Assembly (NCBI GenBank): GCA_949283255.1
Contig: CASDRS010000007.1
Location: 1 to 64,000 of the forward strand
Length of the DNA stretch: 64,000 nt
Direction: 5' to 3'
Source: an uncultured bacterium
Lineage (GTDB): Bacteria > Cyanobacteriota > Vampirovibrionia > Gastranaerophilales > Gastranaerophilaceae
The translations under genes and the position numbers were made by a program. Each line of letters opens with the position of its first letter. Position 1 is the first letter of the stretch. The notes beneath the pieces are model-generated. The model made no database searches. It was not told the DNA's origin and saw only the letters and a list, made by a program, of their open reading frames with translations. Below, in pieces: positions 28,905-40,826 of the stretch.

Positions 28905-30104
28905 CTAACTCCCGAAAAATCCGTCTAACTTATTCATATTATCAGCAGCAAACTTTTTAAGCAAATTATTTCTAAACACGCTGTCAGAAACATGCATCGC
29001 TAGATCACGATAACTCTGTGCAACATTAGATGAAGAATTAAGCTCGGAAAGCAAAACACCTTTGTTAATTGATGCCATAAGCGCAAAATAATTGTTAGGA
29101 ATCTTCCAATATATTTGTTTTTTCAACAATTTCACAACATCATCAACAGAAATCTCATCATTCTCCATATATCTGTTTATTAATACCTGAATTTTCTCAT
29201 CAGGATACCCAAGCTTTTCAAACAAATCTAAACATCTTTGACAATTTCTGAGCGCAGGCAAATTGACAATAGTAACTAAAAACACCAAATCAGAATAATC
29301 TAATGCCGTGATAGTCTTATCATCAAAATTCGCATCCGTATCAACTACGATATAGGAAAAAGTTTCCTTTAAGGCTTTTATCAAATTTGAGATTTGCTTT
29401 TTGGAAATTCCTTCGGCCTGTTTAAAATAAGGTGGATCCGCCAGAACATACAAACTTGTATTTTTATATTTTTCCATTGTTGATAACAAAAAATCCTTGT
29501 TCAAGGTATTTGAATTGTTCAACATGTAAGAAATATCAAAATTCGGAGACAAATTCATAAATGTTGTAATATCACCTAATTGAAAATTCAAATCAATAAG
29601 CGCAACATTTTCTTTAGTAATCTTTGCAAGCTCAAAAGCAAGATTACAAGCAATAGAAGTCTTACCGATTCCGCCTTTATTTGAAAATACAGTAATCATT
29701 TTACATTTATTCGGTTTTTGCTCTGGTTCAACATATCTCAAATAAATATTTTTCATGACCTGCACAAATTCATCCTTAAGCAAAGGATAAGAGAGAATTT
29801 CCTTAACTCCGAGGCTGACAGTCTTAACGATAAAATCAACCTCAGGATTTTCTTTCACTGCAACAATCACACACTCAGGAGCGTCAGCGACAACTTTTTT
29901 TATAAAATCCTCACCTAAAGCCCCATCATCAAAATCTACAATAAGAACCGATTTTGAAAGCGACGACAAAGTATTATACAATTCTGAGGAGTCAGAAAAT
30001 TCTTGAGACTCAAAATAACCGTCAAACTCCTTAAGATAAGCCTCCAACAAAACTCGAAGACGGTCATTTTTAGTAACAATAATCGCAGGAAATTTCTCAG
30101 CCAT
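28905..30104 (-). CDS. CpaE-like protein: receiver-like domain plus ParA/MinD ATPase
   Basis: A 399-residue protein. Residues 1-120 resemble a receiver fold (AIIVTKNDRLRVLLEAYL, LIVDFDD, VKEILSYPL). Then comes a deviant Walker A, FSNKGGIGKTSIACNLA, followed by ALIDLNFQLGDIT and YIVVDTDANFDD in the MinD/ParA manner. CpaE proteins localise Tad pilus machinery at a pole. The CpaF-like gene follows immediately, so the two are expected to work together. A 6S-like RNA gene ends 19 bp upstream on the same strand. Confidence 0.82.
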   Translation of the reverse strand: MAEKFPAIIVTKNDRLRVLLEAYLKEFDGYFESQEFSDSSELYNTLSSLSKSVLIVDFDDGALGEDFIKKVVADAPECVIVAVKENPEVDFIVKTVSLGVKEILSYPLLKDEFVQVMKNIYLRYVEPEQKPNKCKMITVFSNKGGIGKTSIACNLAFELAKITKENVALIDLNFQLGDITTFMNLSPNFDISYMLNNSNTLNKDFLLSTMEKYKNTSLYVLADPPYFKQAEGISKKQISNLIKALKETFSYIVVDTDANFDDKTITALDYSDLVFLVTIVNLPALRNCQRCLDLFEKLGYPDEKIQVLINRYMENDEISVDDVVKLLKKQIYWKIPNNYFALMASINKGVLLSELNSSSNVAQSYRDLAMHVSDSVFRNNLLKKFAADNMNKLDGFFGS

Positions 30105-30122
30105 ACCAAAATCCTTACATTT

Positions 30123-30300
30123 AAAAAAGCTCTAAGGGATGTGATTTTGTTACCTGCTAGGCTCGCAGGTGGGTGAGCGCCTTGGCAAATCCGTTTCCCA
30201 CTGGCGATAATTATATCGGTGGGTATACTTCAAAGCCTATGAGAGTCAACTCTCCCTATTAAAATAAATGTAGGAACAAAATTGAACACCCCTATAGAGC
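30123..30300 (-). ncRNA. ssrS: Structured small RNA, probable 6S RNA
   Basis: About 178 nt on the minus strand. The ends pair as a long interrupted rod: GCTCTA with TAGAGC, GGGG with CCC, ATTTTGTT with AACAAAAT, and CCT with AGG. The interior holds smaller hairpins, including ACCTGC/GCAGGT and CGATA/TATCG inside CCCAC/GTGGG. The 3' stem runs straight into six T, an intrinsic terminator. A complete promoter sits immediately upstream. Length, rod-like closing stem and opened centre fit 6S RNA, which binds RNA polymerase holoenzyme. No sequence-level match was made, so the identity is inferred, whereas the existence of an RNA gene is well supported. Confidence 0.65.
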
Positions 30301-30306
30301 AATAAC

Positions 30307-30335
30307 AGTATAACAGTTTACCCTGCAAAAAACAA
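30307..30335 (-). promoter_or_regulatory. Promoter of the 6S-like RNA
   Basis: Minus strand: TTGTTT (30335-30330), exactly 17 bp, TATACT (30312-30307). Transcription would begin about 7 nt later at G 30300, which is the first base of the closing stem. Confidence 0.8.
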
Positions 30336-30410
30336 TACCCCTTGAGGTAATATTAATTTTAGAAAATATATTTTTCGCACAAAAAGTTTCCAACTATTAC
30401 CTCTTTTTTA

Positions 30411-30767
30411 ATGGTGGGCATGAAGAGACTGTCTTGAGTCGCTCGCTATTAACGGCATTTCGGAACTGACCTACGTCAGCCCCTACAGCCTCAGCTCACT
30501 CCTCGCTCGAACTTGACAAGGCTCCGCCTTGTGGGAGTTCTCGTCTCTTTTGGGCAATAAAAAAGAAGTCATTAAGACTTCTTTTTAAATGGTGGGCATG
30601 AAGAGACTGTCTTGAGTCGCTCGCTATTAACGGCATTTCGGAACTGACCTACGTCAGCCCCTACAGCCTCAGCTCGCTCCTCGCTCGAACTTGACAAGGC
30701 TCCGCCTTGTGGGAGTTCTCGTCTCTTTTTGACAATAAAAAAAGAAGTCATTAAGACTTCTTTTAAA
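30411..30767 (-). repeat. Two tandem units of about 178 bp derived from the tRNA-Leu 3' end
   Basis: Units at 30411-30588 and 30589-30767 are almost identical. Each begins, in plus orientation, with the same 20 bp that form the CCA end and T-arm side of tRNA-Leu(UAG). About 130 bp of GC-richer unique sequence follows, with hairpins ACAAGGC/GCCTTGT and TGAC/GTCA, and then a copy of the tRNA terminator hairpin AAAGAAGTC/GACTTCTTT. Both therefore repeat the pattern tRNA 3' end - terminator - insert beside the intact gene. They carry no believable protein. The skeleton GACGAGAAC-GTTCGAG-GTAGGGGC (minus strand) also occurs next to tRNA-Pro. Bases 30345-30410 hold nothing further I can support. Confidence 0.85.
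30735..30764 (-). terminator. Terminator after tRNA-Leu(UAG)
   Basis: AAAGAAGTC (30741-30749) pairs with GACTTCTTT (30755-30763) around a 5-base loop. On the minus strand it is followed by seven T. A second copy lies in the adjacent repeat unit near 30560-30586. Confidence 0.85.
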
Positions 30768-30768
30768 A

Positions 30769-30850
30769 TGGTGGGCATGAAGAGACTCGAACTCCCATGC
30801 TTTCGCACTAGTTCCTAAGACTAGCGTGTCTACCATTCCACCACATGCCC
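30769..30850 (-). tRNA. tRNA-Leu (anticodon UAG)
   Basis: The acceptor GGGCATG/CATGCCC is followed by discriminator A and an encoded CCA. The anticodon stem CTAGT/ACTAG surrounds loop CTTAGGA, giving TAG. A short variable arm (GCG AAA GC-type) and T-arm GGAGTTCGAGTCTC complete a class II tRNA. The 3' 20 nt are reused in the adjacent tandem units. Confidence 0.95.
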
Positions 30851-30939
30851 AAATTTAATTTTCAATCAGCCTGCCTGCTTCTCACAAACAAACCGTATTA
30901 TTAAATTACCCTAAACAAGACTGGATGTCAATAAAAATA

Positions 30940-31356
30940 TTATTGAAATAAAGGTTTCCCAAACATATAAATTTGTATAGCACCCAAGTCTCTTTGCCAA
31001 GGCGTCTCTACATTTCTGTCGGAATTTACCAAATTCACGAAAAACAAATTCATATCAGCTTTTAATTTTGCTTTACTCTTGAACATCGTTTTCGTTGTAT
31101 GAACAAATTTCAAATAGATATCACCGGAATATGTCTTCAAAACTAAATAATCCGTGCCTTCCTGTGTTTCTATATCAACGTAGCGAATCTCACTTTTATA
31201 AAATCTTTCTTTTATTTTCGGCTTTTTGTTCCAATAAGTTTTTTCTAATACATAACACGTATTCCCTACACATTTTAACTTCTTTAAAGGAGCTGAACTG
31301 ACTACGCCCATCAAAGCAAATATGCAAATAATTAATATAACAAAAAAATATTTCAT
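30940..31356 (-). CDS. Small exported protein of unknown function
   Basis: A 138-residue protein with a clear N-terminal signal or anchor (MKYFFVILIICIFALMGVVSSA). The mature part is Lys-rich with one close Cys pair (KCVGNTCYVLE) that could form a disulfide, and contains mixed beta-type sequence such as DYLVLKTYSGDIYLKF. No family is recognised. It stands alone; 135 bp separate it from the upstream ABC ATPase gene. Confidence 0.75.
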   Translation of the reverse strand: MKYFFVILIICIFALMGVVSSAPLKKLKCVGNTCYVLEKTYWNKKPKIKERFYKSEIRYVDIETQEGTDYLVLKTYSGDIYLKFVHTTKTMFKSKAKLKADMNLFFVNLVNSDRNVETPWQRDLGAIQIYMFGKPLFQ

Positions 31357-31491
31357 AAAAAGTCCTTAATAAATGCAGCCTCTTAAAAGTCATCCAACCC
31401 AAATAAGTTTCTATTACTATTGTAACATTTATTAAGATTTTTATGTATATATTAAGATACAATGTAAACAAACGTTAAGAAAATATAACAA

Positions 31492-32445
31492 TTACTTTTC
31501 CAAAAAACAAGCACATAAATGCCCTGAACGAACCTCACAAGAAGCAGGAACTTCTTGAGAACACGGTTCAAAAGCATACTTACATCTTGGATGAAATCTA
31601 CACCCTGTTATATCTTGCTGAATAGATGGAGGCTGTCCTGCAATAGTCTCCAAACTTTTACCCCTATTTTCAGGAATAGAATTTAACAGAGCTTTTGAAT
31701 AAGGATGCAAAGGACTCTTGAAAAATTCCTTAGCGGGAGCACTTTCAACAATTCTTCCGGCATACATAACTGACACATATTCAGCATACTCCCTAACTAA
31801 AGCCAAATCATGAGTTATCAACAAAACCGCAGTATTTCTCTCATTTTTAATTTTAGTTATTAAATCCATTATTTGAGCCTGTATAGTTACATCCAATGCT
31901 GTCGTAGGCTCATCTGCTATCAAAACCTCTGCGTTACAAGCCAACGCCATCGCAATTATAGCTCTTTGTTTCATTCCGCCCGAAAGCTCATGCGGATAAG
32001 ACTGCATACGCGCGCTTGCACAAGGGATTTGAACGGCTTCCAAAGCTTCTATAGCTTTTTTCTTCGCCTCAACACCTCTTAAGGCCTGATGTATTTTTAT
32101 AACTTCCAACAACTGATCACCTATAGTAAACAAAGGATCTAAAGAAGTCATTGGGTCTTGAGGAATCAATGCAATCTTTTTGCCTCTGATTTTTTGCATT
32201 TCTCGATTTGAATACTCAAGCAAATTAGCTCCACCATAATTAATCACACCCGAAGTGATACGAGCCCTTTTTGGAAGCAATCCTAAAATACTCATTGCAC
32301 TAAGAGTCTTTCCACAGCCTGATTCGCCAACAAGAGCGTGAGTTTTTCCTGCTTCAAGAGAAAAAGACACATCCCACAAAGCTTGCCGAAAACCGCATTC
32401 CAAATCAAAACCTAAACCAAGTCCCTTTACATCGATAATATTCAT
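31492..32445 (-). CDS. Oligopeptide/dipeptide ABC transporter ATP-binding protein (OppD/DppD type)
   Basis: The ATG at 32445 gives 317 residues (MNIIDVKGLGLGF); the open frame extends 22 codons further from a non-supported start. Walker A is GESGCGKT, the Q-loop region is IPQDPMTSLDP, the signature is LSGGMKQR, Walker B is LIADEPTTALD, and the switch is ITHDLAL. The C-terminal GCRFHPRCKYAFEPC is the Cys motif typical of Opp/Dpp ATPases. No permease or binding-protein gene is adjacent. TATAAT ends exactly 6 nt before the ATG and no Shine-Dalgarno is present, so a leaderless mRNA is likely. Confidence 0.92.
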   Translation of the reverse strand: MNIIDVKGLGLGFDLECGFRQALWDVSFSLEAGKTHALVGESGCGKTLSAMSILGLLPKRARITSGVINYGGANLLEYSNREMQKIRGKKIALIPQDPMTSLDPLFTIGDQLLEVIKIHQALRGVEAKKKAIEALEAVQIPCASARMQSYPHELSGGMKQRAIIAMALACNAEVLIADEPTTALDVTIQAQIMDLITKIKNERNTAVLLITHDLALVREYAEYVSVMYAGRIVESAPAKEFFKSPLHPYSKALLNSIPENRGKSLETIAGQPPSIQQDITGCRFHPRCKYAFEPCSQEVPASCEVRSGHLCACFLEK

Positions 32446-39965: not shown

Positions 39966-40826
39966 ATGAGTTCAGGATATTGGCAAGGCGTACTAAACAG
40001 ATTACCTAATTTCTTGTTACAGACTTCTGCAATGTGTTTCACGGCAGATGCACTAACAAGGAGCTGTAGACATCCGCATTTTATGTACAGCATATTTCCA
40101 CCAATGGGAACATATATGCCGTACAGGTCTTTTATGCCATATCAAACGTATATGCCTTATCAGCAATATACTCCATACCAGACATATACACCATACCAGC
40201 AGTATTCACCATACATGTCACCATACCCGACAGCTCCAGGTATGAGTCCTAGTCCTATACTGCAAACATTTACTGATGCCGGAAAAGTTGAGGATTCTCA
40301 ATCAACAAATCTTGGTGAACATTTGGTAACCGCACCGGAAACAGAATTTGTATCAGAGCAATGGAAAGAGCTTGATCAAAAAAAGAATTTAACACCAACT
40401 GAGAATATAAAACTGCACAGCAAATATAACGATTTTATAGGAAATCTTGCAAAATCATTTACTTCATTTATAGACAAGAGTAACGCGGGTGATAAAGACG
40501 GTTATATTTCAAAAGAAGAATTCAAAACCTACTATGCAAGCCAGCTTGCAAAACAGAACAGTACACAAGAAGAAATAGATAAACTAAAAGCAGAAGCAGA
40601 CAAGATATTCACAAGCCTTGACTTAAGCAAAGAAGGAAAGCTTGACTGGAAAGAACTGTCTTCATTCTTAGCACTAGCGGATGCATCTGGCACTAACGGG
40701 AAATATGACGGAACTATAAAAAATGAAGACATGCTAAAAGCATTAAAAACTGTAAAAGATGGCGGTATAACAACACAAAACAAATTAAAAGAAAACTACA
40801 ACAACATCTTTAACAGATTATCTTAA
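39966..40826 (+). CDS. Tyr/Pro hexapeptide-repeat protein with EF-hands
   Basis: A 286-residue protein. Residues about 45-90 contain roughly six tandem Y-x-P-Y-Q-x hexapeptides (YMPYQQYTPYQTYTPYQQ). The C-terminal half has EF-hand-like calcium loops: a canonical DLSKEGKLDWKE, and two longer variants at DKSNAGDKDGYISKEE and DASGTNGKYDGTIKNE. No classical signal peptide is present. Tyr/Pro repeats with calcium sites suggest a surface or matrix protein whose assembly depends on calcium; this is inference. GAGAGG precedes the ATG. The csaB gene is convergent, 5 bp away. Confidence 0.8.
   Translation: MSSGYWQGVLNRLPNFLLQTSAMCFTADALTRSCRHPHFMYSIFPPMGTYMPYRSFMPYQTYMPYQQYTPYQTYTPYQQYSPYMSPYPTAPGMSPSPILQTFTDAGKVEDSQSTNLGEHLVTAPETEFVSEQWKELDQKKNLTPTENIKLHSKYNDFIGNLAKSFTSFIDKSNAGDKDGYISKEEFKTYYASQLAKQNSTQEEIDKLKAEADKIFTSLDLSKEGKLDWKELSSFLALADASGTNGKYDGTIKNEDMLKALKTVKDGGITTQNKLKENYNNIFNRLS

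Follow-up and report, generated by a model that had tools for sequence, protein, structure and literature searches.

Gene-less units of about 180 bp behind a tRNA-Leu(UAG) gene and their relatives: a probable family of mobile cassettes at the 3' ends of tRNA and tmRNA genes

The window analysed here, a 64,000-nucleotide stretch of a contig from an uncultured bacterium of the order Gastranaerophilales, contains a tRNA-Leu(UAG) gene followed by two units that each end in a copy of the 3' end of that tRNA. How do such units arise, and do they belong to the tRNA or to an element that has settled behind it? TRF places an array of period 178 bp at 30402-30787, with 2.2 copies and 97% matches; its score of 730 far exceeds any other in the window. 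An independent repeat search of the window found the same array, bearing out a previous sequence-only reading that had described two near-identical units of about 178 bp at this tRNA 3' end. The host gene, on the minus strand at 30769-30850, is intact, with the CCA encoded (ARAGORN; Rfam tRNA, 57.3 bits). Read on that strand, the tRNA is followed twice by a terminator-like hairpin, a GC-richer stretch of about 130 bp and a copy of the tRNA end, again as described. The proximal unit 1 (30590-30768, 179 bp) and the distal unit 2 (30412-30589, 178 bp), both on the minus strand, are adjacent and 97% identical. Both are also matched by R1, the covariance model introduced below (30593-30729, 131.7 bits, and 30415-30551, 129.7 bits).

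Comparison with the host revealed two further host-matching segments in each unit, arms (i) and (ii), that the sequence-only reading had overlooked. In unit 1 the terminator-like hairpin behind the tRNA, AAAAGAAGTC-TTAAT-GACTTCTTTT (30740-30764), is followed by arm (i), AAGAGACGAGAACT (30714-30727), which is the reverse complement of host positions 52-65 with TC changed to GA (12/14). Next come the apical hairpin ACAAGGC-GGA-GCCTTGT (30694-30710, helix 3 of the model), arm (ii), AGTTCGA, which equals host positions 52-58 (30685-30691), and a core ending in CTCAAGACA (30608-30684). The unit closes with copy (iii) of tRNA positions 59-76 (30590-30607), which is exact, with 14/14 matches over 59-72. 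The parts of unit 2, all likewise on the minus strand, are its terminator-like hairpin (30560-30586; inverted repeat I6, also seen in the fold), arm (i) (30536-30549), the apical hairpin (30516-30532), arm (ii), again equal to host 52-58 (30507-30513), the core (30430-30506) and an exact copy (iii) of 59-76 (30412-30429). The copied tRNA end had been put at 20 bp; the copy is there, but its length is 18 nt (59-76, GTCTCTTCATGCCCACCA), and the A in front of it equals A58. Similarly, the suggestion of a tRNA-derived element holds for the arms and fails for the core, which is not tRNA-derived.

The locus folds with a z-score of -8. Apart from chance matches, the Rfam search returned just the tRNA and a 6S RNA below threshold here, and the RtT model (RF00391) had no match in window positions 29000-32000, even at E up to 5. 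No integrase was found and no gene fits within or beside the units, in agreement with the earlier reading. The 6S RNA-like sequence lies directly behind the array at 30125-30303 on the minus strand (RF00013, 38.3 bits, below the gathering score of 46.4), and in each of the 12 relatives inspected a 6S-like RNA adjoins the same gene. Elsewhere, the window has a short tandem repeat with units of 18/36 bp at 40137-40214.

The search of the genome and its relatives for the core, which the sequence-only reading had proposed, led to related cores behind many tRNAs. Partial relatives of the core were returned by a DNA search of 57 relatives, and most of the loci fetched adjoin a different tRNA or a tmRNA. 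The covariance model R1 was built from seven units at five kinds of tRNA (Leu, Gly, Lys, Ala) and has matches in 246 of the 286 genomes and 43 of the 50 genera of the window's order, often with at least 10 units per genome. The window's own genome has eight strong and two weak R1 matches, all ten downstream of same-strand tRNAs. A same-strand tRNA or tmRNA lies upstream of 94 of the 108 R1 matches inspected, usually at 15-61 bp or one to two unit lengths further, while several of the other 14 have tRNA or tmRNA 3' ends missed by ARAGORN, contig edges or further units. In all there are 26 host labels (Leu, Ser, Lys, Met, Tyr, Gly, Asp, Val, Ala, Thr, Gln, Arg, Asn, His and tmRNA).

In a model-free check, all 40 tRNAs of the window's genome were scanned for a copy of their own positions 59-72 (at least 12/14) within 420 bp downstream, with the upstream side as control. 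Such a copy was found downstream of 7 of the 40 and upstream of none, and six of the seven are units. The unit behind tRNA-His(GTG) (L052, about 1551-1980) has an unrelated core and is not matched by R1. Since it nevertheless carries GATGAGAACC, GGTTCGA and the tRNA-end copy, the arm plan is independent of the R1 model. At tRNA-Val(GAC) (L038, minus strand) the tRNA 3' end and its flank form a 160-bp direct repeat without arms (i) and (ii), which may represent another type of duplication or a unit in decay. In a few units the arms and the host disagree: copy (iii) of the tRNA-Arg(TCT) unit (L035, about 1552-1850) resembles tRNA-Arg(CCT) and not its own host, so that this unit was possibly caught between hosts, or the host gene was replaced later. 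Long insertions or tandem pieces lie inside the cores of units at L013 (about 1320-1600) and L127; these could be nested cassettes.

Across these units the plan is constant: a complement of the host T-arm with a fixed TC to GA change (arm (i), otherwise complementary to host 52-65), a hairpin, host positions 52-58 (arm (ii)), the core, and host positions 59-76 (copy (iii)). Arm (ii) agrees with the host at positions 52-53 in 67 of 69 well-defined units, including 15 of 16 with AG hosts and one with a CG host, and it follows TTCAA hosts in both cases (2/2). Position 51 equals the host in only 20 of the 69, which is the chance level, and the unit sequence departs from the host after A58. Among 31 distinct arm sets, the pairing of (i) with (iii) amounts to 86%, as against 70% with mismatched hosts. 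The GA opposite G57A58, a tandem G.A, is present in 30 of the 31, the single TTCAA set having CA/AA. Two-sided changes were found in 24 of 29 pairs of the predicted fold, and 94.8% of cells are paired; shuffling lowers this to 79.2%, and slid partners to 42% or less. The fold is favoured in both respects by an alignment that had been fitted to the model. Several units have a copy whose CCA end is not that of the host, and the difference runs in both directions; an exchange of tRNA ends would account for this better than a target duplication of fixed length. Arrays often end, on the side away from the tRNA, in a unit cut inside or just behind arm (i), as at tRNA-Arg(CCT), tRNA-His (where L052 has a truncated second unit besides the full one) and tRNA-Gly(GCC) of the window's genome and at the E. 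coli tRNA-Ser (L301, L302). A truncated distal unit is expected if new units enter next to the tRNA.

The cores also bear on movement. Median core identity is 0.70 between units at the same tRNA in different genomes, 0.70 between unrelated pairs and about 0.99 between tandem neighbours. Cores that are 94-98% identical were found at tRNA-Ser(GGA) (L055, genus g49), tRNA-Leu(CAG) (L119, g6) and tRNA-Leu(GAG) (L114, g39), and their arms follow the respective host, the difference between TTCGA and TTCAA included. Near-identical cores with host-fitted arms are what horizontal movement between tRNAs predicts; they ask for either a templated refit or a fast adaptation of the few arm positions. In one relative (G006) with the same 6S-like neighbourhood as the window, tRNA-Leu(UAG) is empty and the tRNA-Ala beside it is followed by a unit, and in another (G009) tRNA-Leu(UAG) is also empty. 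Movement and host fitting of the cassettes are well supported.

The plan extends beyond the order. The pattern GGGAYGAGAACC-N3..18-GGTTCGA, scanned over 84,980 species, gave at least 119 stretches. Among the matches listed, 61 of 89 (80 loci) have a tRNA or tmRNA on the same strand at most 700 bp upstream, and 38 of those 61, by our count from the listing, have a copy of the host end of at least 12/14. By record title the 38 belong to Beta- and Gammaproteobacteria, Bacteroidota (Sphingobacterium, Mongoliitalea and Flavobacteriales), Verrucomicrobia, Lentisphaeria, Omnitrophota, Gracilibacteria and Neomarinimicrobiota. The same plan thus occurs in at least six phyla, where, the pattern itself fixing arm (i) and part of (ii), the independent evidence consists of the tRNA position and copy (iii) only. 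The cores are unrelated between lineages. Carriage by phages or viruses was considered and rejected: viral contigs held no exact match to the window type, phage records held none at all, and of 14 matches to the general pattern in viral contigs two look genuine (L320, L322), lying beside a tRNA or tRNA end. The viral-contig matches lie mostly inside gene-like sequence and so show what chance matches look like. Of 39 plasmid records that matched, 35 are typed as non-mobilizable; several are chromosome-sized and some are 160-311 kb.

In E. coli, the tyrT-tyrV locus provides an occupied and an empty site. Among the E. coli genomes listed, 4, 3, 2, 1 or 0 RtT features are found there. A strain without units reads CCA/TCTCAAGCATTACC, whereas an occupied strain reads CCA/TAATTC...unit...AATCCTTCCCCCACCACCA/TCTCAAGCATTACC, so that the flank of the empty site resumes exactly behind copy (iii). 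The allele without units could also be an excision through the 19-bp repeats, a loss rather than a gain. The E. coli tRNA-Ser locus has arrays of differing length, with a terminator in each unit; in strains without units (L299, L300) another insertion, with a DUF4942 gene, occupies the same tRNA end, and units and islands may compete for this site or share it. When R1 was run on the 3.5-kb E. coli locus, one RtT unit came first, weakly (14.5 bits, E 5e-4 for the locus), and the other three had E values of 0.05-0.34. Common descent of the E. coli and window units is plausible, though not proven. The sequence-only reading had pointed to the pattern that site-specific insertion leaves at the 3' end of a tRNA, and this is supported by the empty site and variable unit number at tyrT-tyrV and by the core relatives behind many tRNAs of the window's order. 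Its counter-proposal of a simple old duplication, with a fixed unit number and no copies elsewhere, is contradicted by the same observations.

Whether the units act as DNA or RNA is hinted at by their loops. In window-type cores, hairpins with stems of at least 5 mostly have 3-nt loops (42 of 66). GNA triloops number 23 and 30 in two sets, as against 0.6 and 0.9 in shuffles, while GNRA tetraloops number 1 and 0, and G.U makes up about 3% of paired cells by our own tally, with one constant G.U pair left out. C(GNA)G triloops are exceptionally stable in DNA, and RNA favours GNRA and UNCG tetraloops. The loop types and the scarcity of G.U pairs thus hint at a function as single-stranded DNA. A hammerhead-like core, considered for the tandem G.A next to the P1 stem, was rejected, as the hammerhead C3/U4 are absent.

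Taken together, the units are probably a mobile, non-coding, structured cassette whose insertion site is the T-loop/3' end of tRNA and tmRNA genes and which is moved in trans. This reading draws on the order-wide spread, the association with tRNAs and the host tracking; on near-identical cores at different tRNAs in different genera; on the exact empty site, the range from 0 to 4 units and the variable tRNA-Ser arrays in E. coli; and on the recurrence of the plan in at least six phyla, the enrichment of GNA triloops and the few G.U pairs. Against it, neither a mobilising enzyme nor a circular or excised form was found, the E. coli polymorphism may reflect loss instead of gain, the arms at tRNA-Arg(TCT) do not fit, and R1 responds only weakly to E. 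coli. The cassette proper would be the apical hairpin plus the core, and its insertion would leave the tRNA intact and place the cassette between it and a second copy of 59-76, an arrangement like attL/attR. Tandem arrays would result from repeated insertion at the tRNA or from recombination between units, and units would disappear when they are excised through the 18-19 bp repeats or truncated at the far end. In the predicted fold, arms (i), (ii) and (iii) form a three-way junction with a T-stem-like helix, a tandem G.A over G57A58 and the apical hairpin, from which the core would emerge exactly between A58 and N59. Such a junction would imitate a T-arm and, as single-stranded DNA, might be recognised by a trans-acting enzyme, the cassette being non-autonomous and joined between A58 and N59. 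We infer the single-stranded intermediate, the enzyme and the order of insertions from these features. No candidate gene predicts the units: Y1 transposases (PF01797) are absent from the window's genome and most of the element-rich relatives tested, although E. coli, among the control genomes, has a Y1 gene; reverse transcriptase genes show no correlation with units; and tyrosine recombinases occur in all 24 genomes tested, so that none of the three discriminates.

The most serious alternative is that the units are a structured RNA serving the host, either a released small RNA or a trailer that affects how the tRNA transcript terminates, folds or is processed at its 3' end; arm (i) could pair with the tRNA T-arm or with (ii)/(iii). 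The strong compensatory changes (24 of 29 pairs), the low fold z-score, the constant position on the tRNA strand close behind the tRNA and the Rfam entry of the E. coli RtT as a Cis-reg RNA would all suit such a role. We nevertheless consider it unlikely, given that only about 7 of the 40 tRNAs in the window's genome have units, that E. coli strains without tyrTV units exist, that cores are unrelated between lineages and have DNA-like rather than RNA-like loops, and that a terminator usually precedes the unit. If the tRNA end had simply been duplicated in place together with the region behind it, adjacent window units that are 97% identical would be accounted for, and unequal crossing-over can change array length; such duplication may still explain local copy number. 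As a full explanation it was rejected and is the least credible, owing to the related cores that accompany many other tRNAs, in this genome and in others, each with arms fitted to its host, and to the near-identical cores at different tRNAs.

Two known kinds of mobile DNA might also have left such units. They could be remnants or small satellites of integrase-driven islands that recombine at the block from the tRNA T-loop to the 3' end. The identity block of tRNA-targeting tyrosine integrases runs from the T-loop to the tRNA end, as does the 18-19 bp block seen here; tyrosine recombinases are present throughout the genomes tested, and islands use the same E. coli tRNA-Ser, where the DUF4942 gene adjoins. 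What makes this origin improbable is that the units keep one small size and plan at 26 kinds of host within a single order, that no integrase lies beside them and that integrase sites leave the host fitting of the internal arms (i) and (ii) unexplained. A miniature element of the IS200/IS605 or REP kind, with a Y1 (HUH) transposase in trans cutting 3' of TTCGA, would explain the join exactly behind TTCGA and the DNA-type hairpins, and it implies no target duplication of fixed length; E. coli does have a Y1 gene. We regard it as similarly improbable, since Y1 is missing from the window's genome and most element-rich relatives, units also occur where none was found, and a tRNA-end copy on both sides is not typical of such elements.

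No description of such a cassette family was found in the open literature, outside which lie the classic tyrT papers in subscription journals, and gene-less cassettes of about 180 bp at tRNA and tmRNA 3' ends appear to have gone almost unnoticed. The classic tyrT work comprises Egan and Landy in 1978, Rossi and others and Altman and others, both in 1981, and Boesl and Kersten in 1991. If the mobile-cassette reading is correct, the long-known and puzzling tyrT repeats of E. coli would belong to a family of selfish or satellite DNA that spans phyla, and many tRNA-end fragments and variable tandem arrays would be explained by an element that fits itself to any tRNA. Since E. coli strains differ in having from 0 to 4 units, this reading would also open the old question of the tyrT repeats to tests in laboratory strains. 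A bolder version, which is possible though rather doubtful, sees gene-less mobile DNA across many phyla that re-tailors itself to each tRNA by a templated step at the T-loop, with RtT as one member. Such a step would yield three host-derived arms, a complement of 52-65 and copies of 52-58 and 59-76, and if it exists, any tRNA could be used without damage to the tRNA.

Among known systems, RtT (RF00391; rttR, tpr) shares the plan, having tandem units of 175-178 bp in the same orientation behind the tRNA, an arm (i), GGGGAAGGATGAGAACCTT, that complements the T-arm with the same TC to GA change, an arm (ii), AAGGTTCGA, a core and a copy of positions 58-76. It differs in core sequence and in a short loop where the window has the ACAAGGC hairpin; its model does not match the window, and no window counterpart of the tpr reading frame was noticed. 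The IS200/IS605 and REP-type hairpin elements are likewise small and rich in hairpins with DNA-type loops and join beside a fixed TTCGA, whereas the target of the cassettes is the tRNA T-loop, their arms are fitted to the host and they have no consistent Y1 partner. Integrative elements at tRNA 3' ends, with a tyrosine integrase and attL/attR, share the intact tRNA at one end and the tRNA-end copy at the other, and at E. coli tyrT-tyrV native flank follows the attR-like copy, while the window shows only the repeat. Unlike them, the cassettes are gene-less, measure about 180 bp, take any tRNA as host and carry internal arms fitted to that host.
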